The translations under genes and the position numbers were made by a program. From Cladocopium goreaui (Eukaryota > Sar > Dinophyceae > Suessiales > Symbiodiniaceae), in NCBI GenBank assembly GCA_947184155.2, contig CAMXCT020000125.1, positions 372,001-436,000 of the forward strand: a stretch of DNA of 64,000 bases, written 5' to 3'. Under the pieces are notes generated by a model. The model made no database searches. It was given only the letters and a program-made list of their open reading frames with translations, and was not told where the DNA came from. How positions within the stretch are numbered: position 1 is the stretch's first letter; the number at the start of each line of letters is the position of its first letter. Shown piece after piece: positions 14,107-61,900 of the stretch.

Positions 14107-17100
14107 CCGGCTGGTGAGGTCCTTATCATTGAAGTCCAGAGCAGCCATGCCCCAAAGAGCATGCGACCTTTGGGTTCAAAATTGGAGTCACCAAAAACAT
14201 GGATAGCTTATGTTACAAATGACCATCTCAAGAGGTTTTGGGATGTTGAATGGCTTTGATTTCTTTCAAGTCTGGGTTCAAACCTATCTACTGTATCTAT
14301 CCCCGTGCTCACTGTTATCAGTGGACTATAGAAATCATGCATAGAACACCATAGTCTTAGAACGTGCATGTGACCCTCTGAAGAGGAAAACAATGAGGAG
14401 GTCTTGGCCGCATTTCAGTGCAGCCCAGAAAAACAGACTCAGAGCAATCCAGGTGATTCCCCCGGAAACTAGCATCACCCCAGAAATTTAGCACAACACA
14501 TGTGCGATTTGTGGATGCCATTGGAGGCTGCAAATTGCCCCAAAAGCATCACCATTGGTTCGTCAATCTGTGAGTTGGTGGTCGCAAGTGAACTGGAAAA
14601 GTGGTACGTCCCAACCGTGGGGCTCCCTTGACTGCTAGGATCTGCTGATCCTTATGGATTAACACGTTTGAGGGCTGGTCATCATCGTTCCCATCTTGAT
14701 TGATCAAATCACATGAAATCACCATGTTTTGTTGATTAGCCTCCCATAGTTGATCTCCTAAGCTGTTGTTTCGATCAAATTCCTGTGCGTTTGCTGCTGC
14801 AAATCCAACTTTGGCTGATCATATCACCTCCTGATCCATATAACCTGATATTCTCATGGCTGATGGCTTCCTACTCCAACACAAATGTTCTTTGCATTTT
14901 GGATTGTAGGTTTCTTTGCTCCCGGATTTTAGGTGTCATTCTTGTCTTATGATTGTTCTGTGTTTGCACCCAAACCATCTACATGACTGATGATGTACTA
15001 ATCTAGCAGAAACAAAAAGCGATCCCCCAAAAAAATCAAAAACAACATCCAATTTATCCAATCCTAGAAATATTGAACAGTTGAGCCCCTTTTTCCAATC
15101 TTTTTCTGGGGGCAGCTTGTTCATTTGCGCATCGCCTTCATTCGCCAAGATGCAAGTCTCTCATCTCCAGCTCGCCCAGCACAACACCAATCTGGTGCGG
15201 TTTTTGTGGCCATGGATTTAGCCCCAAAATTGGCTGTCTAATGAACGACACATATATATAAAGATATACAAAAAATACAAATAATTATATATATATATAT
15301 GCACATATACATATATACATATATACTATACATAATATATGTGCAAAGTCATATGTGAGTTGCAAAATCTTGGAGGAGTGATAGTTTGATATTCCCAATC
15401 GAAAACTCAGGCTTATCAATCTAGGGCTGACACTACACGCACACTCATATACATAGTATATATATATAATGTGTATATATATATATAAAAGGAATTGCCT
15501 ATATATATATATATAGGGAGTTGTGTACATATATATATATATATAGGGAGTTGTATATATATATATATATCTATATGTATGATTATATATATATATATAC
15601 ACATATGTATAAACAATATATAATATAACATTTCAATAAGTGCAGTATAAATTTGTATAAATTCATAATATTTTCGTATGTCGGTTTGCCGAACTGCTGA
15701 CGATTACGACCAAAGAAACACTGTTTTTGGATGTTTTTTGGATGTTTTCAGCAGTGCTTAGACCAGCTTAGGGTGGCCTACCTTCCCAAAGCATATGGCT
15801 AGCAGCTGGTTGACAGGGTTTCCCAAGCTTAGCAACTGAGTACCTGATGGCAACCTATGGTTATTCAGTGGCCCTGAAAAAATTGAAAGCGTTATATACA
15901 TGAAAAACAAAAACTGTCAATTTCTATGGAATTTAAGGGAAAATTTGCAGGAAACCCCCCATATTTCATGGGAAAATCAATGGTTTCTTGTATATTTTCC
16001 CTTAAACCAAATCCATGGACAATTATTACCTGATGGTTGGTGGTATACCTACACCTCTGAAAAATATGAAAGTCAGTTGGGATGATGACATTCCCAATAC
16101 ATGGAAAGTCATCAAATTCATCTTCCAAACCACCAACCAGAATATATGGACATTTTAGGATTGGAACATCAATGGTTTTCCTGTAGATTTTCCATGGGTT
16201 TCCAAGTTTTCCTGCAGGTTTTCGATTGGAAAATCATGGGAACATCGTTTCAGGGGCCAAGACAGGTGCTCCAGCAGCACCTCGTCGCGCAACCTCTCAA
16301 GGTGACCTGCAACAGAGCTTGATGGCAGGAAACCCATGCCCCGAAATACTACTATATAAGATTAACAAACAGTGTATATATATATATGTATATGTATGTG
16401 GGTATAAATATATATGATTTTACATATATATATATATATATGTGGGTATATATATATATATTTTACATAACCCTGATTTTAATGATAAAACACACATATC
16501 TATATATATATATAAACACATAGATTTCATAGCTCTGAGCTCTGTATCCAAAACTGGGTGCAAAGGGAGGACCAACATAAGGCTGTGAACTCCACCTTAG
16601 ACGCACATACAAAAAGGGACCAAACGTGTTTTTTGAATGGTCTAATCACAACTTTCCTAATACACCTAAAAAAAATGCGGGAGATCAAACGCTCTTGGCC
16701 AACCATACCGGATGAAGTACTGTTAATGAGTCATGTATAGCTCAAGTTTTTAATTCTGATGCATTCGACAACAGGCAAATCTGAATTTTGGTGCTACAAA
16801 AAAAACCCAACACGACGAAAACATGTGCGCCCAATGTGCGCCCATTGGTAACCTAAGTGGCTAGTTTAACCAGCAAAAATTGAGACTTAACCACAAAACA
16901 ATGATTAAACAGTGGGATTCAACCAAAACACAGCCATTGATCAAATGATCAAGATTCCAAAAGATTAACTGATTGAAATCCCAAAAGGCCAAAATAACGA
17001 TTGGAACAAACACATGTAGATTATATGCGTATAAATCCTGAAAAGTAACAACACCTGGAAGAAAAACATGCAGATTATATGCGTATAAATCCTAAAAAGG

Positions 17101-20100
17101 AAAAACACCTGAACACCACAATAAAATAACCATTACATAGTATGCCATAAATGAAAAACACTTTGATTAAGTCAAACATATACATGTATATATATATATA
17201 CACTTCAACAATAGCAAACAACACAACAAAAACAAAGAATCAACACGGTCGCGCGTGGTCGCCTCGGCTGACGGTGGCATTGGGATCGGCCCAGCCCAGA
17301 GCCCACAGGCACCCGGCAAGTTGCTCGGGCATCCTGCCAGCATGGCCAAAAAAGATACATGTGAACACATACTAGACATATGTTGCATATGTATATCATA
17401 CAGTATGCATAATTTATATATATATATATATGTGGCAAATACTACGTATGTATATATATATATACATATGCGTGTTTTTAATATGATATAATCCTGTTCT
17501 ATAATTATTTTCGCCAGACCATTGCTTATCTAAGAATCAACAAACTTGAAAAAAACGAGAAAATGCCACACAAATGGAACACCAATTTGAATAAGCAATT
17601 GAGGAGAACATCATTCTATATATGATTATATATCTATTAGAACAAGGGGTTGAGCAGCTGCGTGTTCTGGTGGCATCCCCCTGGGTGAAATCACATGACC
17701 TGGCGGGTTCCCTGAATTTGCAGTGCGGCATTCAACACGATTGAAGCAACAAATGGAATAATCGTTGGATTTCCACCATGGAATTGTTGATCATTGATTG
17801 AACAATTGATAATTCCAATGGATATGGCATTATTAATTAATAAAAAATGAAAGAAACATTGACAACCCAATGGAATTTTAATGAAAATTAAACCGAATGG
17901 ATATCAAACATAATGGAATAAAACCTAACATTGACAATAAACCTAATGGAATTTAAAACCCAATGGATCATTCATAATGAAAAACAATATTTCCATATAT
18001 TTCCATAATAGGATTTGCCAATGGGATTCAAACAGTGGTCAATTATTTCATTGTAGGTAAGTATCAATTGGTTTGATCACCATCAAATATTTCATTACCA
18101 AACAATGTATGAGTACCATCAATTAGTTCAAACCTAGGGTAGGTACTCTACAAACAAATACATGGTGCTGGTAATGCCATATTCGCATATATGGCCAAAA
18201 AAACATACAAAGAAAAGTTGGTTGGTGTTTTAGCCGCACACTGACAAATATGTTAATTTCAATGGGGTTCATCATACCAAGCTTGTAATCCACCAACCAG
18301 CAAATGCATACACCCGTGTGTATATATATATGCAATATATATACTAGTATACTGATATATCGAACTGGTCTACTGAACTGCTTGCCACACTGTTTATCAT
18401 GAATGCCAATTGTTGAATGGCTATGTGCCTACAGTATATCATGCTACTTTCTCATCTTTGAAGGGTACTGTGTATATTATATATATACACTGTATATCTT
18501 ACATGGATTTGTCTGAAAATCATCATGTTCCCATTGAATTGAAAAAAACACTGTTTGGGTTTGGGTGGTATACGCCATCACCACTATACCATTTAAGTTG
18601 GTTGTATATCCCATGTTGTCCTCATCATCCTCTGGTAAACTTTCACATAACTATAGAAAATCATCATGCTATTAATGGGAAAATCAACTATTTCTATGGG
18701 CCATTTTCAATAGCTATGTAGCAAATTACCATATTTCGACTGGGCCATTTTCAATAGCGAACTGTAACAAATTACCAGAGGGTAAATCCCATTCTATTCC
18801 CATTACCGTTGGCCTCATGGCTTTTCTACCCCCCATTTTTTCGTATAGTTTGCCAGTGAAGTCCCCATGATATACATATTCTAATATGATATCCCCGTTC
18901 TTGATGGTTTTGTTAAATAATATATGCCTATATATAACTATAATTATATATACACATCTCTCTCTCTCTCTCTATTATCCATCACTATTACATATTTCTA
19001 TTAAATCACTATCCCTGAAAAGTGCCATCCTTCCACAACGATATAGTAACATAGTAGTGATATTTAGATATACCTATCATTATCCCTATTTTGATATCCG
19101 TCCCGCCATAACGGTCATGTCTTCCGCCACTGCTTCCAGGGAGATCAGCACGCTGGGAAGCAGCTTGAGAGCTGTGCCATGGACGCAGGTCTCCTGGGCG
19201 CTTTTTTTTCAAAAACCATGGGGGAACGGAATCAACAGCAATGGTGAACTTAGGGGGATTGAATCATCATTGAACAGCAATGGTAAACTTGATTCAACAG
19301 CAATTAGGATCATTCAAGCGGAAAGATGAGGATTCAAGATGTTCTAACAGTGTTCTAACCAACAGCAGTTGGGATATTCCTTACAAAAGCGGGACAATAT
19401 CACAAACAAAACGAGGGATGTAAAGAACTGCCCAACTGCCCGGAGAGACGACTCATGGGACATGGCGACGAAATTGGATGGCAACCTCTATTGACTGTGG
19501 GCAGGGGCCGGCTGAAGTTGGAGGGTTATTTGATGTTATTTGTATCAACCATTAAAAAGCCATAGGCACAATTCTGGAAATATCTGGATGCTCAGGATTC
19601 AGCTTTAGACCTGGGAAAATGATCCCAAGGTGACCCCATTGTCATGGGGATGAGGGATGCGAGTGATATCCCGCAACCCTCATTCGATTCTACTGCTTTG
19701 GTGAACAGAGATTCCCACAATTCATGGTGATCATCATCTGGTTGGTGGTTTCAACCCCTCTGAAAAATATGAGTTCGTCAGTTGGGATTATGACATTCCC
19801 AACAGAAGGAAAGTCAATTTTTATTCATGTTCCAAATTTTCCAGTCACCACCAACCAGTCATTATCAACAGGGCTTTTGAACACATTCGCATGACGCCTG
19901 CAGCATGGCGATGGAGTAGAGCAAGGAGTACCTGGGTCCCAACGGCCCCAACGGGGCGATGGACTCTGGTTGGGCACTCTGGCAGATTGCTCCCAGAGTC
20001 CAAGGGTGGCTCTTGATGGGAACATCATCTATTAAAATAGGTTACCAATATATAAAAATATCATCAAATGATATAACCCAATCATCTACTATAGGGATAA

Positions 20101-23100
20101 TCAATCCCAATCCTATAATAATTGTTTCATTTGATGATAAATGATATTACCAATTTCATTTATCCGAAGTTTGTTGATCAAAACTCCCAATCAAACTTCG
20201 GGACTTTGAACCGGAAAACTGGGAATGGGATCAACAGGAGCATAGAGTACTGTGGTCAATCATAGTTAAACAAACAGCTAATAATGATTCCTCCAAATTA
20301 AGCATAGTTAAGCCATAGGTACACCATTGTTAAACCATAGTTAAAACATACTGTGGATGGAAGAAATCCTGCATCACCTTAGATGGTTGAAACCCTGTAA
20401 ATAAAGGGATAAGCCACCTATCAACTGGTGCAGGATTTCTTCCATCCACCGTATGTACACCATAGTTAAGCCATAGGTACACCATAGTTAAACCATAGGT
20501 GCACCATAGTTAAACCATAGTTAAAGCATAGTTAAACCATAGGTACACCATAGTTAAGCCATAGGTACACCATAGTTAAACCATAGTTAAACCATAGTTA
20601 AAACCATAGTTAAACCATAGTTAAACCATAGGTCCATAGGTACACCATAGCTAAACCATAATTAAAACATAGGTACCATAGTTAAACCATAATTAAACCA
20701 TAGGCACACCAAACACCATAGTTAAACCATGGTTAAACCCTAGGTAAACCATGGTTAAACAATAGTTAAACCAAAGTCAAACCAAAGTTAAACCAGTCAA
20801 ACCATAGTTAAACATAGTAAAACCAAAGGCACACCATAACTAGACCATAGTTAAACCATAGTTCAACCAGAGCTAAACCATAGTTAAACCATAGTAAAAC
20901 CAAAGGCACACCATAACTAGACCATAGGTACACCATAGTTCAACCATAGCTAAACCATAGTTAAACCATAGCTAAACCATAGGTACACCATAGTTAAACC
21001 GTAGTCAAACCATAGTTAAACCATGGCAAAACCTCGCGTCGGAAACTATGCGCGCTTCACAAACTACGCGCTAGAAAATAAAACCACCGCGTCAGAAACT
21101 AAAAAGCCGTGCGTCAGAAACTAAAACCCGCGCGTCAGAAACTAAAACCCCACGCATCAGAAACTAAAACCTGCGAATCCGAAACTAAACCCAGCGCATC
21201 AGAAACGAAACTCTGCGCTTCAGAAGCTAAAATCTGCGCAGCAGAAACAAAGACTTCACAAGGGATCAAATCGGCCACCCCTTCTGACAACTATGTTCAA
21301 TGGGCTATTACCTTCAAGTTATCTTCATTCTGCCCCCCCTCTGATCACAATGTTGATTAGGATGTTACCTTCAACTTATCTTCATAAGGGATCAAATCCG
21401 CCACCCCCTCTGACAACTATGTTGATTGGGATATCACCTTCAACTTATCTTCATGAGGGATCAAATCCGCCACCCCCTCTGACCACTATGTTGATTGGGA
21501 CAACTTATCTTCATGAGGGATCAAATCCGCCACCCTCTCTGACAACTATGTTCAATGGGATAGTACCTTCGTGCAGTTTCCATCCAGGTCTTTAGTTTCC
21601 GCAGCGCCGGTTTTTGTTTCTGATGCACCGTTTTTGGTTTCTGATTCACCGGTTTTAGTTTCCGATTCCGAGGCATGGTTTCTGATTCATCCTTGGTTTC
21701 CGATTCACGGGTTTGAATTCCCGATTCACAGGTTTTAGTTTCCAATTCACGGCTTGGCCGTTAAACCATAAGTACACCATAGTTAAACCATAGGTAAATC
21801 ATAGTTAAACCATAGCTACACTAAACTACACCATAGTTAAACCAGAATTTAACCAGTTAAATCATAGGTACACCAAAATTAAACCATAGGTACACCATAG
21901 TTAATCCGAAGACAAACCATAGTTAAACCATGGTTAAACCATAGGTACACAATAGTTAAACCATAGGTACACCATAGTCAATCCATAGACAAACCATAGT
22001 TAAACCATGGCTAAACCATAGTTAAACCATAGGTACACCATAGTTAAACCATAGGTACACCATAGTTCATCCATAGTCAAACCATAGTTAAACCATGGTT
22101 AAACAATAGTTGAACCATAGGTACACCATAGTTAAACCATAGGTACACCATAGATAAACCATAGCCAAACCATAGTTAAACCATGGCTAAGCCATAGTTA
22201 AACCATAGGTACACCATAGTTAAACCATAGATACACCATTGTTAACCCATAGTCAAACAATAGTTAAACCATGGCTAAACCATAGTTAAACCATGGCTAA
22301 ACCATAGTTAAACCATAGGTGCACCATAGTTAATCCATAGTTAAACCATGGTTAAACCATAGTTGAACCATAGGTACACCATAGTTAAACCATAGGTACA
22401 CCATAGTTAATCCATAGTCAAACCATACTTAAACCATGGCTAAACCATAGTTAAACCATAGGTACACAATAGTTAAACCATAGGTACACCATAGTTAATC
22501 CATAGTCAAACCATAGTTAAACCATGGCTAAACCATAGTTAAACCATAGGTGCACCATAGTTAAACCATAGGTACACCATAGTTAATCCATAGTCAAACC
22601 ATAGTTAAACCATGGCTAAACCATAGGTAAACCATGGCTAAACCATAGTTAAACCAAAATTAAACCATAGTTAAACCAAAATTAAACCATAGTTAAACCA
22701 TAGGTACACCATAGTTAAACCATAGTTAAACCAAAATTAAACCATAGTGAAACCAAAATTAAACCATAGTTAAACCATAGTTAAACCATAGGTACACCAT
22801 AGTTAAACCATAGGTACACCATAGTTAAACCAAAATTAAACCATAGTTAAACCATAGGTACACCATAGTTAAACCATAGTTAAACCATAGTTAAACCAAA
22901 ATTAAACCATAGTTAAACAAAAATTAAACCATAGTTAAACCAAAATTAAACCATAGTTAAACCAAAATTAAACCATAGTTAAACCATAGTTAACCATAGT
23001 AAATCATAGTTAAGCCATCCTTTCAGCACATTCCCGGCTCCACTCCTGAGACGCCCAGCGTGTTGTGTGTACTAAGCTTCCTTCCCTTCAGCTGATCCAC

Positions 23101-31950: not shown

Positions 31951-31975
31951 CGTGGAACAAAAAAACACTAATGCG

Positions 31976-32800
31976 ACAAAATGGAGAAAATCTGCTGACA
32001 AATCACTGTGGCAGCCTTCATGCAGCCACTCCAATACGATTTACGAAGTCGAGCTGCAAAAGACAATAGTATTACGAATGCAGCCACAGCACGAAGCAAC
32101 CTTGACGCAGCCATTACAATGCGATCTGCAGAGACTGAGTTGCAAAACACAATAGAACTACGCGCAACGGCGTCGGAAATTGTAGCTCCAAAACCGGATC
32201 TCGACGCCAGAGCGAAAAAAAGACGATTTTGAAGCACTTTTTAAAAGGATTTTTAGAAGGAAAATCACTAGCGCCAAAATGGAGAAAATCTGCTGACAAA
32301 TCACTGTCGCAGCCTTCATGCAGCCACTCCAATACGATTTACGAAGTCCAGCTGCAAAAGACAATAGTATTACGAATGCAGCCACAGCACGAAGCAACCT
32401 TGACGCAGCCATTACAATGCGATCTGCAGAGGCTGAGTTGCAAAACACAATAGAACTACGCGCAACGGCGTCGGAAATTGTAGCTCCAAAACCGGATCTG
32501 GACGCCAGAGCGAAAAAAAGACGATTTTGAAAAGCACTTTTTAAAATGATTTTTAGAAGGAAAATCACTAGCGCCAAAATGGAGAAAATCTGCTGACAAA
32601 TCACTGTCGCAGCCTTCATGCAGCCACTCCAATATGATTTACGAGATCCAGCTGCAAAAGACAATAGTATTACAAATGCAGCCACAGCACGAAGCAACCT
32701 TGACGCAGCCACTACAATGCGATCTGCAAAGACTGAGCTGCAAAACACAACAGAACTACGCGCAACAGCGTCGGAAATTGTAGGTCCAAAAACTGAGCTG
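31976..32800. repeat. about 300-bp tandem repeat, 2.8 copies
   Basis: Copies start near 31978, 32276 and 32576 with AAAATGGAGAAAATCTGCTG. They are nearly identical (a few substitutions and short indels), indicating recent amplification or ongoing homogenisation. The third copy merges at about 32795 into the next array. Frames such as LQYDLRSRAAKDNSI recur in each copy and are not evidence of a gene. Confidence 0.93.
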
Positions 32801-34062
32801 CAAACCGCAATCCCATTTACATTGCGGGAACGATCCTACAGTTGCAAAGCACAATGGAATTCCATCGGCAACTCATCCACCAGCACCACTTGCAATCCCA
32901 TTTACATTGCGGGAACGATCCTACAGTTGCAAATCACAATGGAATTCTGTCGACCACACATGCACGAAAAACAGGTGAAACCCCATTTACAATGCGGAAC
33001 CGATCCGAGACCGATCCGACCATGATCCGAGCATGATCCGCCCATGATCCGACCACACACGAGACCGTCTCGCAACCGTCGCACCGCAGAGGTAGATCAT
33101 CGAGGTTCGGGGACGGACTTTGTATGGAAAAACATAGGGTTTCGTGCATCTGCTATCTCTCAAAAACGCATTTTGTGCGAGACTTCCTTCAAAACTCCAT
33201 CGGCAACTCCTCCACCAGCACCACTTGCAATGCCATTTACATTGCGGGAACGATCCTACAGTTGCAAATCACAATGGAATTCCATCAGCAACTCATCCAC
33301 CAGCACCACTTGCAACCCCATTTACAATGCGGAAACGATCCTACAGTTGCAAATCACAATGGAATTCTGTCGACCACACATGCACGAAACACAGGTGACA
33401 CCCCATTTACAATGCGGAACCGATCCGAGCATGATCCGACCATGATCCGAGACCGATCCGACCATGATCCGACCACACACGAGACCGTCTCGCAACCGTC
33501 GCACCGCAGAGGTAGATCATCGAGGTTCGGGGACGGACTTTGTATGGAAAAACATAGGGTTTCGTGCATCTGCTATCTCTCAAAAACGCATTTCGTGCGA
33601 GACTTCCTTCAAAACTCCATCGGCAACTCCTCCACCAGCACCACTTGCAATCCCATTTGCATTGCGGGAACGATCCTACAGTTGCAAATCACAATGGAAT
33701 TCCATCGGCAACTCATCCACCAGCACCACTTGCAATCCCATTTACATTGCGGGAACGATCCTACAGTTGCAAATCACAATGGAATTCTGTCGACCGCAAA
33801 TGCACGAAACACAGGTGACACCCCATTTACAATGCGGAACCGATCCGACCATGGTCCGAGACCGATCCGACCATGATCCGACCACACACGAGACCGTCTC
33901 GCAACCGTCGCACCGCAGAGGTAGATCATCGAGGTTCGGGGACGGACTTTGTATGGGAAAACATAGGGTTTCGTGCATCTGCTATCTCTCAAAAACGCAT
34001 TTCGTGCGAGACTTCCTTCAAAACTCCATCGGCAACTCCTCCACCAGCACCACTTGCAATGC
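32801..34062. repeat. about 420-bp tandem repeat, 3 copies, with an 84-bp sub-repeat
   Basis: The landmark GGTAGATCATCGAGGTTCGG recurs at about 33091, 33511 and 33920 (spacing 420 and 409). Each unit contains two or three 84-bp sub-units with ATTGCGGGAACGATCCTACA and a GATCCGACCAT run. Copies differ mainly in the number of GATCCGA(CC/GC)AT words. Confidence 0.93.
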
Positions 34063-34375
34063 CATTCTAACTCTTTCTTTGACTAACTCTTTCCCTGACA
34101 GTCTAAAAAGTTACAATTAACTCTTTCCCTAACTAACTCTTTCCCTCACTACCTCTTTCTTTGACTAACTCTTCCCCTGATGAACTCTTTCCCTCTTTCC
34201 CTCACTAACTCTTTCTTTGACGAACTCTTTCCCTGATGAACTCTTTCCCTAACTAACTCTTTCCCTCACTAACTCTTTCTTTGACTAACTCTTTCCCTGA
34301 TGAACTCTTTCCCTAACTAACCTTTCCCTGACTAACTCTTTCTTTGACTAACTCTTTCCCTGACATTCTAAAAGT
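34063..34375. repeat. AACTCTTTCCCTGACT minisatellite
   Basis: Tandem 16-17-bp units ACTAACTCTTTCCCTG and ACTAACTCTTTCTTTG alternate, directly abutting the 420-bp array. Confidence 0.9.
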
Positions 34376-35169: not shown

Positions 35170-35415
35170 TTGGTCAATCAACTTAAGAAAGGATTTCAAT
35201 TTACTTTCAATTGATTTCAATTGATTTCAATTTACTTTCAATTTACTTTTAATTTACTTTTAATTTACTTTCAATTTACTTTCAATTGATTTCAATTTAC
35301 TTTTAATTTACTTTCAATTGATTTCAATTTACTTTCAATTGATTTCAATTTACTTTTAATTTACTTTCAATTTACTTTCAATTGATTTCAATTTACTTTT
35401 AATTTACTTTTATTT
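35170..35415. repeat. TTTCAATTTACT / TTTCAATTGATT minisatellite
   Basis: About twenty 12-bp units, TTTACTTTCAAT and TTGATTTCAATT. It leads without spacer into the 246-bp satellite. Confidence 0.93.
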
Positions 35416-37260
35416 TTTTTCACTCCCAAAAGTTGGTGCTCACAATAGAGTACCATCCAAACAATTATATTATTCAGTAACTGAGCCACTCATGAGGTAC
35501 CCCTTTGAAAAATTGTCTGGATGCTGTTTTTTAATAAGGGTTTAATAAGGCATCTAATTATTTGGGAAACCTTGCATTTTAAACTCTTAACACAAATATG
35601 GCTTTCTAAAGTGAAAGGACCAGCTTTACCCAAAGAAAGGTGGAGAAAGGGTTTTTGTTTTTTTTTCACTCCCAAAAGTTGGTGCTCACAATAGAGTACC
35701 ATCCAAACAATTATATTATTGAGTAACTGAGCCACTCATGAGGTACCCCTTTGAAAAATTGTCTGGATGCTGTTTTTTTAATAAGGGTTTAATAAGGCAT
35801 CTAATTATTTGGAAAGCCTTGCATTTTAAAGTTTTAGCACAACTATGGCTTTCTACAGTAAAGGGGCCAGCTTTACCCAAAGAAAGGTGGAGAAAGGGTT
35901 TTGCTTTTTTTTTCACTCCCAAAAGTTGGTGCTCACAATAGAGTACCATCCAAACAATTATATTATTCAGTAACTGAGCCACTCATGAGGTACACCCTTG
36001 AAAAATTGTCTGGGTGCTGTTTTTTAATAAGGGTTTAATAAGGCATCTAATTATTTGGGAAACCTTGCATTTTAAAAGCTTTAACACAAATATGGCTTTC
36101 TACAGTAAAGGGACCAGCTTTAGCCAAAGAAAGGTGGAGAAAGGGTTTTGTGTTTTTTTTCACTCCCAAAAGTGGGTGCTCACAATAGAGTACCATCCAA
36201 ACAATTATATTATTCAGTAACTGAGCCACTCATGAGGTACACCCTTGAAAAATTGTCTGGATGCTGTTTTTTAATAAGGGTTTAATAAGGCACCTAATTA
36301 TTTGGGAAAGCTTGCATTTTAAAGTTTTATCACAACTATGGCTTTCTAAAGTGAAAGGACCAGCTTTACCCAAAGAAAGGTGGAGAAAGGGTTTCGTTTT
36401 TTTTTCACTCCAAAAAGTTGGTGCTCACAATAGAGTACCATCCAAACAATTATATTATTCAGTAACTGAGCCACTCATGAGGTACCCCTTTGAAAAATTG
36501 TCTGGATGCTGTTTTTTAAAAAGGGTTTAATAAGGCATCTAATTATTTGGAAAGCCTTGCATTTTAAAGTTTTAACACAAATATGGCTTTCTAAAGTAAA
36601 GGGACCAGCTTTACCCAAAGAAAGGTGGAGGAAGGGTTTTGCTTTTTTTTTTCACTCCCAAAAGTGGGTGCTCACAATAGAGTACCATCCAAACAATTAT
36701 ATTATTGAGTAACTGAGCCACTCATGAGGTACCCCCTTGAAAAATTGTCTGAGTGCTGTTTTTAAATAAGGGTTTAATAAGGCATCTAATTATTTGGGAA
36801 ACCTTGCATTTTAAAGCTTGAACACAAATATGGTTTTCTAAAGTAAAAGGACCAGCTTTACCCAAAGAAATGTGGAGAAAGGGTTTTGTTTTTTTTTTCA
36901 CTCCCAAAAGTTGGTGCTCACAATAGAGTACCATCCAAACAATTATATTATTGAGTAACTGAGCCACTCATGAGGTACCCCCTTGAAAAATTGTTTGGGT
37001 GTTGTTTTTTAATAAGGGTTTAATAAGGCATCTAATTATTTGGGAAACTTTGCATTTTAAACTTTAAACACAAATATGGCTTTCTAAAGTGAAAGGACCA
37101 GCTTTACCCAAAGAAAGGTGGAGAAAGGGTTTTGTTTTTTTTCACTCCCAAAAGTTGGTGCTCACAATAGAGTAACATCCAAACAATTATATTATTGAGG
37201 AACTGAGCCACTCATGAGGTACCCCCTTCAAAAATTGTCTGAGTGCTGTTTTTTTGAATA
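35416..37260. repeat. 246-bp satellite, about 7.5 copies
   Basis: The phrase AAAGTTGGTGCTCACAATAG recurs every 245-248 bp from about 35427 to about 37150. Monomers are over 90% alike by eye, with a variable T-run at each boundary and small differences (CAGTAACTGAG vs GAGTAACTGAG). The last monomer decays after 37255. Repeated 60-90-codon minus-strand frames (LLNNIIVWMVLYCEHQ) are monomer by-products. Confidence 0.95.
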
Positions 37261-43400: not shown

Positions 43401-46400
43401 CGTACACGAAGGGATTTCCCCTATAGTGACACATGATAAGGTTTATAGAATACGGGTGAAACCAGATATCTTTTGAAACTCAAAGATGACAGAAGATGTC
43501 AGGCATATCTGGGATTCAAGATAATAGATTTAACTTGCTATGTGGGTTGAAGTATTTCCCAAAATGAAATCTGTAACCAGTCGGGTCACTATGAACTTTT
43601 TTGTTCACAAAAACATTGCCGCAAAAAAAAACAGATAATGCACGAGCAATACAACTTGTGACCATCAACTTTGGATTCAATCACCAGAATTGGATCTTTT
43701 TCCGAACTCCAAAGCAAACGTGCCACCGCCAACACGATCGTGACACCGCTCGATGTGACAATCCATCGGCGACATCGGTTTCTGCAAGATGATCATCGTC
43801 GAAACATGAAAGGATTTTAAGACTATTCCCCGCTATGGTGCGAAGTGGCTAATCTATTCATGCTCCAGTTGTCTGGGCATTGGGATCCAGATATATCCAG
43901 ATCCTTTCAGGTCACAGTCACGGCTCCATTTCAGTTGGTCCAGTGCCATGATGCCTTTGTAGAGACATTCCTCTTGGTATAGTTCAATTCTACAGATGAA
44001 TCATATGAGTTTGTCTGATATATATATTATACATATATTATATATATATATTATATATATATAGTCCCCGAAATCTTGTCAAAGATGGTTCATAGTGTAT
44101 CATCACGGCGGTGCTAACGGGTACAACCCAGCTGTCAGACCTCCTTCCGGCGCTACAAGCCGCTCTTCCTGGCAGGGGACATGATCACTACAAATGTCTG
44201 TAGACTTTGTCCTTATTTTAAGGGAAATTCACCAAACAAACGTATCTACCACATGATTTTAATACATTGCAACCTTTTAAATGGACCAGATTCTCCTTGC
44301 CACAGTGTTCTACAGGTGCCAAGTTGTGTTTCTATCCACTGGTGGCCGGAAATCCATGGGCTGTGACCGACAAAAATCCTTCCCCGTCCCACAGGGATTT
44401 TTGACTTGGCGGCTAATGGGATATAAGATATCTTATGGAATTTAACTTTAACCATATTTAACCAACCAGTTACAGTGGAATGACTATCTGATATACCATC
44501 CGGTATCTGATATACCATCCGGTAATTCTTCAGACTTTGCGAGCTGGTATAGATAGCCCATTTAGCTTGATGATTCACTAATTGAACACGTGGTGGTTTT
44601 CGATAGCTACCTGAAAAAAAAACGGGAAATGTGAATCAGTGTTCATTGCCAAGTGCAAATTCCCAAGTATATCAGGGGGTTGTTCCCAACAATCCCAACT
44701 GTCCATCCAGTGGAAATGGCGGTGCACCCGGTACACCGAGTGATTTGGGGATCCCAATCACCATCATCCCATCGTTGGGTTGATCGGCAGCACATAGCCA
44801 GCTGTGGCGGGGCTGCCGCAGTGTTGAGCTTTGGGTGGATGTTATTAATTATCAATGCGTTACATAATTACATATAATTACATATGTATATATATATATA
44901 ACATAGACTATATGAATAATATGATCCTCAGTTGGCCTGTTAATATTCTTTTCAAACAATAGATCGTAGTTCATGGAAGATGCGTGAGGACTGCAGTTTC
45001 AATTTTGAAACAGCGAGCCAGTGAGGTGTGTACATGTATATATACATATAATCAAACCATATCATTCTCATGTGTGTCTCCCCCGAAGCTCCAGTACATG
45101 CTTTACATTCTCAGTGTTAAAGGCTTTCTTACATCTTCTAGACAAGCAATGAACCGCATAAAAAGGCACAATACATCAATATAAACGCATACATATATGA
45201 TGTACTGTATATATATATAAATATATATGTGTGTATGTTGCCTATGGATCCAAGTACCTCTGAGGAAGTATTTCCAGAATGATTGGGGGTTGCCTTCCAA
45301 AAGCATCTGGATCCAAATAGGTATTTCGGCCTCATACCAGCCCTGCACAGGTCGCAGCTTGGGCGGTTTGATCCAAAAGCAGGGCCCCGAGGACCTAGCG
45401 CGTGTCGCTGCTATGGAAATCCATGGGTTTCCCGTCCGGGAATCATCAACAAACAGTGGATTTTCCATAGCTATGTTAGAGCTATAAGTGTTATGCTTTC
45501 AGAACTTCAGAATCCATGAGCATTTAGACATGCAAATAGAATTCTAAAACTCCATTGTGATATAGTTTGGATAGAACTTGAATTGGACCTATAAAACAGC
45601 AACCTCATTGGTGGGTGTTTATCATCTACTGTATACAGAATACTATGGAAATGACCCTGTAATACAGCAAACACCATATGTGTATATATCTATATATATA
45701 CATACATACATACATACTATGCACAAAAAAATCAGGATAGAGGTCAAACAAAAACATACTGACACAGTTAGACGTTTGGTAACTTAATATTTGGAGTCAT
45801 ATGTGTATATGTGCATATATATATATATACAATTGTATACATACATATATAGAGTTATGTGTGTATATGTGTGTATACAAAGTGAAAACTATGTGTATAA
45901 TGTATATATTTATATATCTGTGTCAAACTGTTGGTAATCCCGGGATTTCCTTTGAACATAACATAAAACCACTACTGGTTGGTGGTTTTAACCATCTTGA
46001 AAAATATGAAAGTCAATGGAAAGGATTAGCCCGTATATATGTGGTGGAAAATAAAAAAACGTTCCAAACCACCAGCTTACTTCTGTTCTCAAAGCATCTT
46101 TTCCAGTCCCATCTCTACTTGGAAAGGTGGAAGTGCGGAGCTTCGAGATTCTGATACTGCTCCTCCTGTACCACCACGCACAGGTTTCACCCCACAAAAA
46201 GGTACCATAGAATCAACGGTTCATGGAGGCTGTTCCCAAAGAATCCAGCCTGGTAAACATCCCCAGTGAGGCCAGAAATGCAATGGTGGCGATGCCATGC
46301 CTGCCATCGGCTGGGAAGATCTCAAGCTGTTTTTGGGGTAGGCTACAGAACAGGAAATCATATGGCTTTGCCATCCATTTTTTTGGGTCGTTTCTACGAC

Positions 46401-52965: not shown

Positions 52966-55900
52966 ATGTGGAAAACCCAGGACCCAGTGCCTTAAACCTC
53001 CAATTTCGGATGACCTATTTCTATCAATTTCAGGTGGCATAGTTTGTTGCAGTGGGTTTGCCACATTGACACTTAAGAACTTTGACAACTTGAGTGGGTT
53101 TGAGATACCTTTGGTGGCTTGAACTTTAGTGACTTTCAGGCACTTGTATTTATTGTAGTTTCTTACATGTTAATGCCACTATTTCCCGGCACACATGTAA
53201 GTATAAAAAAACAACAGCAGCATTGACATTCTGGATAAATATTGGGGCACAGATCTTTCTGAAGGTGATGGACGGAGGAAAAAAAAAACCTCCCTAGGGA
53301 TCCAAATGCTACCTGGGAAGGTACGGCTAGCCCCCGAACTCAACCCCCAGGTCGTACTTCAGAAAGTATGACTCGACCTCCCTCAGTTCATATCAAGTGC
53401 CCGAAAAAATGTGGGGCACCCCTGAAACTCCTGAACATTTCAAGGATGTCCATCGTGTCCTCTGAAAATCATGGGATTATGATTAAACCCCAAACCCTAG
53501 TGAGTTTTAACAACAAAAACGATCGACCTGAACTTCAGACCTGGTTTTCCCGAATGTACCATTGCCATAACTGCTGGTAAGCAATCCATTTTTCTGGAGA
53601 AACCTACAAAAAGTGGCATTTTCCCGTTCATTCCGGTGGCTTTGATAAGCATCTGCTGCCATTTTGAATTGTCCCTGTTGTGCTTGATCAGAAAAAAGGA
53701 AAGCCATGACCATAGGTTTGAAGAGACGATTTTGAGCAAAGTCTAACTCAGTCTCTCAACATGTTTCAACGAAGATTTTCAATTCTCAGGGTCAAATTCT
53801 AAAGGCAAGGACACAGATCTCTATGCGTACAGTTTTGAAATAATTTCAATGTATTGTGAAATAGCCACACCTAGACACCCAACAAGAAATGCATGAGTTA
53901 CAGCCCATCAAATTAGACCCAACTATAATCCAACATAACCCAACAATGCACAGTAGCAGCTGCTAATGCCGAGTCCAGTTACCCCTTGATGGGATCCTTC
54001 TGGCTGATATTGGGAATCAGCTGGAAAACCCTCAGCATGCTGCTTGGTCACCCGGTGCGGAGCAAGGTTGAACCAACCAGGAGGTAGAACATATAAGAAA
54101 AGAAAGCTAAGGCCTCTTATATGAATTATACCACGGAGATATCATAATATATCATAAACATACATAATTATACCGTATATAATTATTAAGTTGGTCATGC
54201 ATCCCATTTTATCACATACACACAGGAAGTCTCACTATATCCCTATGGTTGATGGTTATAATAAATCCATTTGAGATAGCCAAGAGGTACTGTAACTTGG
54301 GATGAGTACTTCCATGTCTCAGAACCAGCCCTAACCCCACAGCTATTGAGAGTTGGATTTGTCTTCGGCTTGAGGGGTAACCTGTAACTCCCCAAGAAAA
54401 GGTTTTGGATGATCATGTTCTCCTTGGCAATGGCAAATGGCAACGTAAATAAATAAATAAATTGATGAATAAATAAATGAATAAATAAACAAATCAATGA
54501 CATAATCATATTAATTAATTAATTAATTAATGAATTAATTATTAATTAATTAATTAATTAACTAACTAACTAATCAATTAATTAATATACACATCATAAT
54601 ATACATGAATTACAACATAGAGTACATAAGTTGAATTTTGGGTGGTCGCTTTATGTTCTCCTGGGTGTCTCCATGCACGTCGAACAAACACGTCTCCATG
54701 CCGTAAGCAGTACAAGCCTGCAGGGTGACCATCAAACATTTTCATTATAATCTGGTTGGTTGTTTTTAAACATCTTGAAAAATATTACCGTTTATTGCCG
54801 TTTATGCGAAAGCACAAGGGCGGCGCACGGCCCTTGCACCCAACCTCTTCGCGAAGCTCAATGTCCTGCAGTGAGACTCAGCATGTCCCTTTGGGACGTT
54901 AATTGACGTCCCAACTGGTTAAACACACATGAATCAACAGCTTGGATCTTATCAATGGGCCATTTCAAATAATATGAAACCAACCGACGACCAATAGACA
55001 AACCATATGGGCGAGCCATCTTGTGAGGAATTTCAACCCCATTGCACCGCATATACGCCTTCCACAAAAGCAAAAATGGTTTGACACGCTCACTCCATTT
55101 CAAAATTCCTCCAGTTGGGACTTGCTCTTGACTTTCATACCATCTCTTTCGATGGACATACGGCCCCTGGTGGCCCGTGGCCCATGCAAAGTCAAAAAAT
55201 AATTGAATCCCTGAGACCAGTTTGAGGTCAGAACGCCCTTCCAACGCTTCTGAGCCGCAAACAGACCACCACTGGTGGATGGCATCTACGTTGGCTTGGC
55301 CGTATCGTTTGATCATTGATTCCGGTTTCACCCATCTCGCCGGAGCATTCGGCAAGGTTGCTTGGACTGGCAATGTCACTTGAACAGCAGAAACCCTACT
55401 ACCCGCCTTGGCTTGGCTGGCCAACCTGGACTGCTTCAGCAACATTTGGAGAATCGCCATATGCAAAGCTCGACGCTCTTTCAGGGCAATTGCTAAGTCA
55501 TGCCAAGCTCGCCAGAAAGCTTCGCTTCGTCGACCATCAATTGCAGCTGCCGCCTCATCTGTCAATTTGTTGTGCCAGTACGCCCATTCCTCTTCCGGGG
55601 ACGTTGCTGAACTAACCTGACAATGAGAAACCACTTTAATGATCTGAACCTCCATGCTATTCTGTTGCAAGATGTCAGCGATGTTCTGCCACAGGTCCGA
55701 GTGAGATCTGTTGGGGCGTGGTTTGCCTCCTCGCAACAACTTCCTCACCCCTTGAACTACTCCCTGGCAATCGCACCACAAGCGAACTTGATAGCACCGC
55801 TCAGAAGCCCAAACCAATGCCTGGTAAACAGCTGTAAGCTCAGCTCTGAAAGCAGACTGGCAAATACCTCGCAAGTGACCCCCCAAAATTAGGTGATTTT

Positions 55901-58900
55901 CCAAGGAACCAGGACCACCAGAAGCAACAGTCACTGCCCATGCTCCATGTCGTAGTTTTGGTTCAGTCGGATGTGCGCACGTGCCATCCACAAACAAATC
56001 GATCCATTGCTGAGTTCGAAAGGAAGGGAGACCTACTGGTGACATCCGCCGAGTGCAATCATCCTGATTTAGAAAGTCCACATAAACATCCCATTCAGAC
56101 AATTCCAACGCCCACCCATGAACGGAAAACGCCTGAGGAAGTGTGGCAGCATGACGACGCTGCTCGGACGTGAGATGATGTCGGCAACCCTCAAAATAGG
56201 GACAATCCCAAGTACGGTGGGCAAATCCATCTTTCACTCCGCACCAAGGACACTTATCATCCACCCCTGGCTGGAATTTCGCCTTTCCGTTTTGGACAAA
56301 TAGGGTCCCATCCATGTGGCATCTCAGATAGACTTGATCCGCTGCTCCAAAGTACTGCAATGCCTTTTGAGTGGCCACAACATCAACCTCATGCAGGCCA
56401 TCAAAAGTAGGCCGGTGACCCACATCAGTTGCCAACACATGAGCCCAGGCCAAACGAAAACGAACACACAAGTCGTCCCATGAAACTGCAAAAAGACTGA
56501 AGGACCCGAAGCTGTCCTGGACCAACCCATGCGGACCCACAATCCATCCCAAACGCTGGAGGCGCGCAGTAAGCACTGCAGTAGGGCCATTTCGAGGAAG
56601 TCCATCAGGGGATGTCGCAAATAAACCCAAGAGATTTTCCATCCGCTCAAATCCACCTAGTTCTCTTGCGTCCCTAATGGTTTGGAAAATGGACCATGCC
56701 TCCGGGTCTGCCAAGACGGCATTGGTAGCCAAATGGAGTTGCGGATTAGCTCCCTTTCTGTCTGCTTTCAAGCCTCGCATTGCACCTGAGCGCAAGGCTT
56801 TATAGTGAGCAGAACCCAAATGGACAACTGAAACCCCATGCAGTGCTCTAGGCCATGCCAAAATCTTGAGAGCTTGAACCTTATGGGCCATTGGGCATAA
56901 GGGCTAAGGCTCGCCCGCAGAAGTGGCCATACTTTGGTCATACTGGCAAGGCGTGTTTGGATTACCCCATTCCAGCAGTGCTTGGTAAAGTTTTGATGGG
57001 CCCCCAAGTTACGCGCATAGTAAGCCACCATGACCTCAGAGTCTTTCAACTCAGCTCGAGCAGCTCCATGTGAACTCCACGCTCGGGTTTTTTGCATGTC
57101 CAGGGACAAATCCAAAGCCGTAACAAATTCTTGGACCTTGTTCCACAGCAACGGAAAAGAAGTCACATCCCCAAACAAAAGCCCCCAATCATCAACAAAG
57201 GCACGCAAGCTAACCCCCTTGGTATGAGCCGCCAACCAACAGTCCAAAATCCAGTCAACCACAATCATACCAACCACCGAAAGTCCACATCCTTCAGGAA
57301 GTCCACAATTGGAGGCCACAGGTTCGCCCACTGCTTGTCTCACTTTAAACCGCCTAGTCTGACCAGCAACAAAGGCACACCACGCTCGCATGACATGGAC
57401 AGGAAATCCAAGGGTCCGGAGAGCACACCATAATGGCAGTCTTGGGATTGCGTTGAAAGCTTTGCGGATATCCATCAAAAGTCCATGAACCGGGGAGTCA
57501 TCCATGAATGCAAATTCCAGGGATTGGGCAACTTGGTACCATATGGTTTTTGCCTGCTTACCCGGAACACCACCCAAGATACCTTCAGGCAAGGCCGGCA
57601 TCAGCGTGTGCAAAGCTTCACGTGCCCTTTCAGAAGACCAAACCCGGTAAAACAAGCTGTACACCGTGACTGGACGGTAGTCATCGATATTTTGAGCCTG
57701 CAAGTGTTTGGCCAAACTGTTAACAAAACCAGAAGCTACCTGAATCGGCCATGGGGTGCCATCTTCAATGGCCTGGAGAACGGAGACAAAAGCCTGGACA
57801 GCTTGCACCGGGAGAGCCGCTAAGTCAGGTTGTCCGACTCCATCTGGACCTCTACCCGCTGTCTTTTTCTTTTTCCCCACGGCCTGCTGGAATCGCCCAC
57901 AAGTCCAGGGCTGACAAGTCCAATCCAGCTTGGGAAGGGTTCTCTCAGCAAACTGACAAATCTGGTCCCACTGGCCTGGTGCAACATGGTGTGCTTTATT
58001 CCATCTTGGCAACCAAACTTCATGAAACTTGGCGATAATGTCTGTCTCGGTCATCGTGACTCGTTCCTGGACCAAAGTCTGACCTGCTTCAATGCCCTCA
58101 AGATCCTCAACCCACAACTGGTCATGCTCATGATGGATGACTTGCAAAACTTTCCCAGGGCAACCACTGGCAAATCCGGTAACAACTGAATGGGAGCTGT
58201 CAAAACCAAAGCTGACTCCTCGGCACGCACTTCATCAATCCCTACCTCCATGCGCTGCAGCAAGGTATCCACAGGAGGGGGAGCAGCACCCTTGCAATCT
58301 TGAAAGACATATTGCAAGGAGCCAGACCGGCGTTGTTTCCCAAATTGATATCTTTTCTGTGCCAACTCAGCTTCGTATGCTTTCACCCATTTGTTCATGG
58401 AATCAAACATATCTTGTAAGACACTGGCAGGGGGGCAAATCAAGGGAATCCCAGAAGGAAAGACAGGGAGAAATCCATTGGCAGACCACCAACTACCAAA
58501 TCCACCAGCAAAACCAGGGGCACGCCGCACTGCACGCCAAGTGTCTTCTCGGTTGAGACCTGCATTCAAGTTTGAATTACCTCGTGCTCGTTGCTGGCTC
58601 AAGGCTTGCAGTCGTCTCAGCTGTTTGAAGTATCTTGCATGTTGAAGGCTAACCCCATAGAAACTGGGTGCCACTTCGCCAAAACGTTCTTTGCGACACG
58701 GCACTTGGTGAGGGACCCTGTTGACCGTGTGAAGGGTCTGTCCTCTGCCTTGTTGAGCACGGGTGCATGTGATGCCATGATGTGCATTCCATGTGACTGC
58801 GTTCTGTTCAATCTGTGCCCACAACCTGGCATACTCAACCGTCAAATCAGAACCAGAGTGAAAACTGACATCACAAGTCCATGAAGCAGGCCAAGGAAAA

Positions 58901-61900
58901 GGTTGAGGCATGCGCCAGTAAGGGAAGGAGGTGCCACCTACCGAAGCAAACTTGGCAACTACCGGTGCATGGTCAGCCCACATGTCATGTTGAACTTCAA
59001 CACCAACAAGGATTTGTTGAAGTTCCGGCGATAGCCACAACTGATCGATTCTTCGTCGACCACGGCCGGTACGCTCTGCTGACTGGCCCCATCTGAGTGC
59101 CGCAAGGTCCTGGGCTTCACGGAAGCCTAGATCCAACAACCGTTTTGTTTGACCAAGCTCGTGAGCTGAATAGTTAAAGTCACCCCCAATTGCACGTGGA
59201 CCCGTGCTCTGATACGCAACTCGTTCAACCAACTCAGAAAGCATCACCTCTGTTTGATATTTGGCATCTGTGTGTTGTGCATTGGCTGGAACTCCATACA
59301 ACATGCCAACTGTGACCCACATGTTACCAACCACCATGCCCGCTACTTGTAACCGTGCAGTGCTAAAAGTATGGGCTGCAAAACTGTTTGGCAACGGCCG
59401 TGCAGGTGACTGGCTAAGCAACATCACCCCTGAGTGGTTGCCTGTTCCCTGCTGATTCCTGGCTGGACAAGGAGCACCCGGCACCACTGCAACCCATGGT
59501 GATTTCACTGCTTTAAGCCCTTTAACAAAATTGCGCAAGCCCACCACTGACAGATGCGTCTCCGACAGGATCCAAGCATGACCACCCATGTGCGCAATCT
59601 GATCAACCTTCGAATTCAGACCAGACGGGTTTGCAATCCCAAGTGACCATCCCTGTGAATGGGGTCCTGGATGGGAAGCTTCTCCAACGCGCAAGAGGCA
59701 AAGCAACAACACAAAGAAAGTCCAACTCCTTCGAATCGGATGGGAACTACGGGTTTTTCCTGGCGGTCTCCCCAGAGCCCAGGCACAAGTCCAAATCCAA
59801 CCTGTGGCGTGAGGAGAAGTGCTGCTGACATCTTCCGTCTCAGTTGGCCACCTATGTTGAAAGTCCAAAAGCCCAGATGTAAAGTCCAAAATCCAAAATC
59901 CAAATGTGGCCAAGGTCAAAAATGCAACAGCCCAAATGCCAGATTCGACTGGACCACCGCACAACCAGGCCAAACCAAAAATACCTCCCAAAAGTACCAC
60001 CCAATTGCTCAGGGAAGGTTTCCAAACAACCGGGCACCGTCATTCTGGGCGATGACGCTTGGCAAGCAAAGATTCAAATTAATTCATCTGTTGTTGGAAC
60101 ATGGAATCCAACATGCTCTGTTGATGAGCTGACTGCTGTCGAAACTGCTCTTGGAAGGATTCATGAAACGATTGCAGCTGGACATTTTGATTGGCAAGTG
60201 CTGTCTCAAAGTGGGCACCTTGCTGGGACACCTGAGTGCGGATCTCCTGAAATTGCATGTCGATATCATTTGTCTGCTTCGCAACTGCATGTTGAAGAGT
60301 CTGTGCATGCTGGTGCAGTTCCTGGACTTGCTGCTCCAACTTGCCTACTCTGTCATTTGTTTCAGCATCAGCATCAACATCCATGGCCGCTCTGGGCAAC
60401 TGGGCCATCACTGCATTGATGACCTTTTGTTCAATGTCATCAAGTGGACTGCCAATGTGGACAGGTGCCGGGGTCTTAACCGCCTTGGTGGATGGCTTGG
60501 CCCAGGGGTCATTCACTTGGAGTTCATCCACTGTGGCATCAGTGGAGACCTTGGAAACCGTCGATGGGGTAGCAATGACTCCAGGCTTGTCAGGGCCTTG
60601 CTGGGCAGTCTCAGATTCACGTGTGATCACAACATCACCATGGCTCATACGCATGACTTTGCGGGGAGGCTCTGTGATGGCTTGGACACGAAACACCAAC
60701 CCTGGCACATGGGAACGTGTTGAAACTGGCTGCAAAGGTCTCACCGTTCACCCATTCTCACTCATGGCCTTTGTCAAAGAGGACTTCAAAGTACCATATG
60801 GCATGGGGCCAACCAAAAAAGTAAGCTTGTCTCCCTGTGGGAGGAAGACCTGTTCGGGTCTGATCTTTGCTGACAATGCCGCTGCAAATTCAACCCGGCA
60901 TCGAAGTCCAAGCTTGGTTCCTAATCTTGCTACTCCACAAACCTCAGGCAAGGTCTGACGTTGCATGATCAGCTGGCGAAGGTCAGCACGAGGAGTCCAT
61001 GAATTACAACATAGAGTACATAAGTTGAATTTTTCGGTGGTCGCTTTATGTTCTCCTGGGTGTCTCCATGCACGTTGAACAAACACGTCTCCATGCCGTA
61101 AGCAGTACAAGCCTGCAGGGTGACCATCAAACATTTTCATTATAATCTGGTTGGTTGTTTTTAACCATCTTGAAAAATATTAGTCAATGGGAAATATTTT
61201 CCCATACATTATGGAAAATAAAACATGTTCCAAGCTACCAACCAGAAAACTATCTTGGAATAGTTACCCCTACTAATCACCATCTTTCCATTGAGGGCGC
61301 AGTGAGTTTTTTTAAATATCCAAATGTATCTAGCTCAGCTTATGAGAGGGACGACTCCCTGCAACATTTGAAGGTCCGGAGACAGGGTTGGAGATATGTT
61401 CCTTCCAAAAACATCACCCTGCAGAGTGGCCAGATGTGGCCAGTCAGTTAACCACCAAAAATATCTCAAGACCTTGATGAGATTCGCACAGAATCTAGTC
61501 CCCTGCCGTGCCGAGTTGCAAGACCAAAGGAATACATGGGGCAATTGCAGACACCTTGGCACGGGCGAGTCTTCAACCGAAAGAAATGGGATTTCAACAG
61601 CCAAATGTCGGATATAAATAATGAATGATGACAATATGCTGAACTCCTTTCCAAATGGGATGACTTACTACATCAAGTTCATGGTTGCTAGGTCTTGCAA
61701 TCTGGACCCAGTGCGACATCTTGCTCACGTAAGCCACCGAAATCACACTCGTTTTCACACATGTGCCATTCCCATTCAACACCAAACATCTGGGCATGGT
61801 CATCCACAAGGAGGAATTTTGCGGATTCCTTCTACATCCTTCTACTGGGGGTTGAAGACCCTGTTGAAGCCTGTTGAAATAGGTCCAAAGGCCCATGACC

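Follow-up and report, generated by a model that had tools for sequence, protein, structure and literature searches.

A 5'-truncated LINE in Cladocopium goreaui, very probably flanked by a 184/185-bp duplication of its target site

Organization of the locus

The window analysed here (64,000 nucleotides of contig CAMXCT020000125.1 in GenBank assembly GCA_947184155.2, from the dinoflagellate Cladocopium goreaui) carries a long interspersed nuclear element (LINE) on its minus strand. The LINE body, of ~6.2 kb (54788-60997), is 5'-truncated inside its first open reading frame (ORF1), with its 3' end at 54788 and its 5' junction at 60997, and direct repeats of 184 and 185 bp abut both of its ends. 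Our results indicate that the locus is very probably a truncated LINE with its target duplicated on either side, and part of that target belongs to a miniature inverted-repeat transposable element (MITE).

The remaining ORF1 occupies 60079-60999 on the minus strand and contains in-frame stops at 60748-60750 (TGA) and 60079-60081 (TAA), with several ORF1 relatives continuing to match down to 60043. ORF2 lies downstream on the same strand and is divided into three parts: part 1 (58051-60000), with an apurinic/apyrimidinic endonuclease (APE)-type domain whose match to PF03372 is below the Pfam cut-off (E 0.0016); part 2 (56768-58147), with the reverse transcriptase (RT; PF00078, E 4.4e-11); and part 3 (54858-56891), the C-terminal region with RNase H (PF00075, E 4.7e-07). 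Frameshifts near 58150 and 56897 separate the parts and, together with the two in-frame stops in ORF1, they show that this copy is dead.

A protein search with ORF2, in which the 7996 candidates sharing most words were scored, listed 37 proteins, among them P0016, which is essentially the protein of the window itself, and P0028, which is named Cladocopium goreaui. Both aspartates of the RT motif FVDD are invariant in the 11 of these 37 matches that were aligned. The endonuclease is better preserved in relative P0052, where PF03372 is over the cut-off (E 1.8e-07) and stands upstream of the RT in one protein, and P0046 also has endonuclease and RT in one ORF, with PF03372 under the cut-off (E 0.0022). 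With an RT, an APE-like endonuclease upstream of it in the same ORF and no long terminal repeats (LTRs) of its own, the element is an APE-type LINE. As expected for a eukaryotic LINE, the endonuclease protein and the ORF2 alignment had no relatives in viral contigs, and the ORF2 alignment had none in contigs of prokaryote genomes. P0016 (54861-56780) and a second protein, P0002 (60082-60708), each differ from the window by one residue, at or by their start, and for both the longest contig recorded has 9201 bases; perhaps they stem from this locus as assembled elsewhere or from a copy made very recently.

The 3' untranslated region (UTR), which follows the ORF2 stop at 54788-54857 on the minus strand, ends in ATAAACGGCAATAAACGG, and there is no poly(A) at the LINE 3' end. 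That edge is set by the end of the repeat and not by other LINE copies, and the LINE 3' end may overlap the target by up to 4 nt (ATTA on the plus strand). The last bases of the UTR read AAACGGCAAT AAACGG, and the second unit is complete (AAACGGTAAT) only when the first target bases are counted, an ending that resembles that of LINEs with 3' terminal repeats. A GC-rich potential hairpin in the 3' UTR (54788-54857) was considered as a recognition structure and rejected, since its predicted fold is no stronger than that of shuffled sequences (z -0.13).

No further piece of the LINE was found in the window outside this locus, either by tblastn with the 15 ORF1 matches and the three ORF2 parts of the window, where the sole extra match paired the left repeat with the part of P0001 that the repeat encodes, or by tblastn with the 37 ORF2 matches. 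A blastn search with the LINE body against the window likewise found no other piece, only one 24-nt inverted self-match inside the LINE.

The repeats themselves, neither of which is assigned to a strand, lie at 54604-54787 (left, 184 bp), adjoining the LINE 3' end, and at 60998-61182 (right, 185 bp), adjoining the truncated 5' end. They have the same orientation and are identical at 181 of 184 aligned bases, with three substitutions and a single gap of 1 nt within a T run. The longest exact word common to 54300-54787 and 60998-61485 (488 nt each) is 88 nt, against a maximum of 14 nt in 300 first-order Markov simulations of two such stretches. No third copy of the whole 185-bp repeat occurs in the window, where blastn matched only its MITE part elsewhere. 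An earlier note on this DNA had described two near-identical repeats in the same orientation, a MITE that is whole at the right and cut at the left exactly where the LINE 3' end begins, and an ORF1 that reads in frame from the right repeat into the element, and all of these observations hold.

Inner and outer edges of the repeats

Two boundaries decide what the repeats are, the inner edge of the right repeat, where ORF1 begins, and its outer edge, which falls within the MITE. Reading through one stop, we searched with ORF1 and obtained 15 proteins. Two of them represent the sequence of the window itself: P0001, and P0002 with 59% coverage of the query. Among the other 13, six reach N-terminally past the junction and are informative there (P0003, P0004, P0005, P0006, P0009 and P0014), and the rest (P0007, P0008, P0010-P0013 and P0015), like P0002, start downstream of it. 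All six informative relatives cease to match at the inner edge of the right repeat (base 60999), which corresponds to their residues 45, 209, 144, 209, 100 and 122 (in the order given above), and each continues for a further 44-208 residues of other sequence beyond the junction. The closest relatives over the junction, P0009 and P0014, are 86% and 87% identical in the matching part, and their upstream sequence differs from the repeat-encoded part and resembles that of more distant relatives. MAFFT paired some repeat-encoded residues with the N-termini of the relatives, but the BLAST alignments stop short of them. Thus, none of the six informative relatives has the repeat sequence at its 5' end. 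When the repeat-encoded peptide (residues 1-48) was the query, no protein other than that of the window came back, within a search that reaches only proteins of about 194-618 residues sharing short exact words.

Because the matches of the relatives end at 60999, the element starts at the W codon 60999-60997 and is truncated inside ORF1, and two nucleotides at this junction (CA, 60998-60999) fit both element and target. On these alignments, we read the flanking repeat as host target DNA and not as the 5' end of the LINE itself. Five of the relatives (P0004, P0005, P0006, P0009 and P0014) have an N-terminal C-x4-C-x2-C-x3-H motif in ORF1 (e.g. CDDDECSGCEAWH in P0009), for which no Pfam match was found in the four that were scanned (P0004, P0006, P0009 and P0014). 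The window copy lacks this motif, which was removed by the truncation.

At the outer edge, an intact MITE-like element of 101 bp (61146-61246, no strand assigned) spans the end of the right repeat (61182/61183). Its terminal inverted repeats are perfect over 10 bp (TCTGGTTGGT at 61146-61155 and ACCAACCAGA at 61237-61246). In the left repeat, only the first 37 bp of the MITE are present (54751-54787), the LINE 3' end follows directly, and the 73 bases beyond the left repeat have no match to the remaining MITE sequence. Other copies or part copies occur at 45975-46074 (E 4e-14), 19730-19774 (E 2e-5) and 16058-16142 (E 0.003). Those near 45975 and 16058 align well over the base at which the left MITE breaks off, and the one near 19730 passes this base by only 2 bases in BLAST and continues further only in the MAFFT alignment. 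Since other MITE copies continue over the corresponding base, the right-hand arrangement is the original one. A cut MITE on the left and a whole one on the right are the structure expected of a target-site duplication (TSD) and otherwise hard to obtain. The inverted ends of this MITE-like family are of the CTGGTTGGTGG type and its conserved core is TGAAAAATAT; four copies or part copies lie in the 64-kb window.

Insertion mechanism and alternative explanations

A very long TSD was one of two explanations offered in the earlier note, and it is supported here at both edges, with the match of the ORF1 relatives ending at the inner edge and the MITE spanning the outer one. The LINE tail might contribute up to 4 nt and the 5' junction 2 nt, so the length actually duplicated is about 179-185 bp. 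The truncation point, the edges of the repeats, the cut and intact MITEs and the coding lesions are read directly at this locus; we infer the order of the nicks and a wide stagger as the cause of the duplication. The LINE would have inserted into the MITE by target-primed reverse transcription, with a first nick on the plus strand within the MITE (AATATTA/GTCAATGG) priming cDNA synthesis from the 3' end of the LINE RNA. The cDNA would have ended inside ORF1, and the opposite strand would have been cut about 185 bp away (ATA/CATGAATTAC), where the 2 nt of microhomology would have served to join the cDNA end. Fill-in of this wide stagger would then have left two copies of about 179-185 bp of target DNA, with the first 37 bp of the MITE among them. 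As a single case, the locus would be a readable record of one LINE insertion, in which the MITE marks the probable first nick and the relatives mark where the cDNA stopped.

We are less sure of the way in which the two strands were cut than of a truncated LINE flanked by its target duplication. In a variant of the same reading, counted within its probability since the product is still a TSD, the LINE would have entered a pre-existing staggered break independently of its endonuclease, followed by fill-in. This variant also makes direct repeats, and the 5' truncation, the short microhomology at the junction and the lack of a poly(A) tail are consistent with it. However, the 3' UTR runs from ORF2 to the junction and its tail may share ATTA with the target, in keeping with priming at a nick, an argument that depends on a 3' end defined from a single copy, and the true 3' end of the family may differ. 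We consider this variant unlikely.

Some points weigh against a target duplication of either kind. The evidence comes from one LINE copy at one locus, and the duplication is about ten times the 10-20 bp given as usual for APE LINEs in the accessible part of PMC6895275. In addition, no stop interrupts the ORF1 frame between an ATG at 61138-61140 in the right repeat and the start of the LINE body, so that the right repeat encodes a 47-residue N-terminal run-on of ORF1. A frame that stays open for 47 codons or more and has an ATG equally far upstream appeared in only 1.3% of Markov simulations with the composition of the repeat and in 2.1% with that of nearby sequence; irrespective of the ATG, the frame was open in 4.8% and 7.8%, respectively.

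The open frame is what would be expected if the repeat were the LINE's own 5' end (5' UTR and N-terminus of ORF1), present a second time behind the 3' end, either as a terminal repeat or in a broken tandem copy, which was the other explanation in the earlier note. It does not survive the comparison with the relatives, since all six that pass the junction stop matching at the inner edge and have another N-terminus, and BLAST aligns none of them to the repeat. Nor did the search with the repeat peptide bring up any relative, and the outer edge of the repeat lies inside a separate, multi-copy MITE. We regard this explanation as highly improbable, and the run-on of ORF1 into the target would be a chance event, a mild coincidence that the homology evidence outweighs. 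As a consequence, the TSD of a 5'-truncated LINE can supply it with what looks like a plausible start of a protein, and annotation and consensus building can be misled.

An identical final structure would result if a 185-bp tandem duplication of host DNA had come first and the LINE had then inserted exactly at the boundary of the copies with little or no TSD. This order of events requires a base-exact insertion between two pre-existing copies, and only the MITE part of the repeat, and no third whole copy, is found elsewhere in the window; we give it very little credence. A reading of the repeats as the terminal repeats of an LTR or Penelope-like element was rejected, the repeats being best read as target DNA.

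Long target-site duplications in other LINEs and further features of the window

The earlier note had expected either explanation to be unusual for a LINE, and this stands for the length only. The repeats, at 184/185 bp, lie outside the usual range of APE LINEs, but TSDs longer than 100 bp, while uncommon, are documented for L1 and R9. A truncated LINE with its target duplicated would thus bear the footprint of an ordinary mechanism, normal LINE insertion, at a length that is unusual but has precedents. In R9 of bdelloid rotifers, a non-LTR retrotransposon, the TSD is well over 100 bp (126 bp, in the accessible part of PMC6895275). Unlike the LINE described here, which encodes an APE-type endonuclease and lies within a MITE, R9 is specific to ribosomal DNA, according to the title of the R9 paper cited there.

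Human L1 is likewise an APE-type LINE, and its 5'-truncated insertions can have very long TSDs, as excerpts of PMC5223499 and PMC2912911 describe. In the excerpts of the former, L1 TSDs over 100 bp made up at most 10% of the events recovered in HeLa cells, but were found in 4/7, 21/23 and 22/28 insertions (57-91%) in three lines deficient for nucleotide excision repair and in 3/9 insertions in complemented XPD cells, and a distant second nick has been proposed as the mechanism of the long L1 TSDs (PMC5223499). In a HeLa assay cited in the excerpts of PMC2912911, L1 insertions with a truncated 5' end were often accompanied by TSDs of extreme length, by deletions or by short TSDs, whereas full-length and 5'-inverted insertions had TSDs of 10-17 bp. 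These L1 cases differ from ours in coming from cultured human cells and, as far as the excerpts report, in mostly having poly(A) tails.

Among dinoflagellate elements, SymbioLINE-Dnmt of Symbiodinium has Exo_endo_phos, RVT_1 and RNase_H domains, lacks poly(A) and is flanked by TSDs, for which the accessible text of PMC5890265 gives no length. It resembles the LINE of the window in its domains, its TSDs and the lack of poly(A). The DNA methyltransferase (DNMT) domain sets it apart, since Pfam found none in the truncated ORF1 of the window or in the four scanned ORF1 relatives.

Judged by titles and the openings of abstracts, no literature on LINE TSD length in dinoflagellates was found. Dinoflagellate genomes lack ordinary nucleosomes, and for this reason second-strand cleavage might take place far from the first nick, so that LINEs of this family in dinoflagellates would routinely make TSDs of at least 100 bp as a trait of the family or the host. 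We consider such a trait doubtful. If long TSDs were common in dinoflagellate LINEs, the poorly understood second-strand step would open to comparative study.

Away from the LINE, the window also contains large tandem arrays at 21760-23018, 31973-34066 and 35413-37254. Their units are, respectively, of 11/22 bp (GTTAAACCATA, with 57.5 copies of 22 bp), of 298 bp (2.7 copies) together with 420 bp (3.0 copies), and of 247 bp (7.5 copies).

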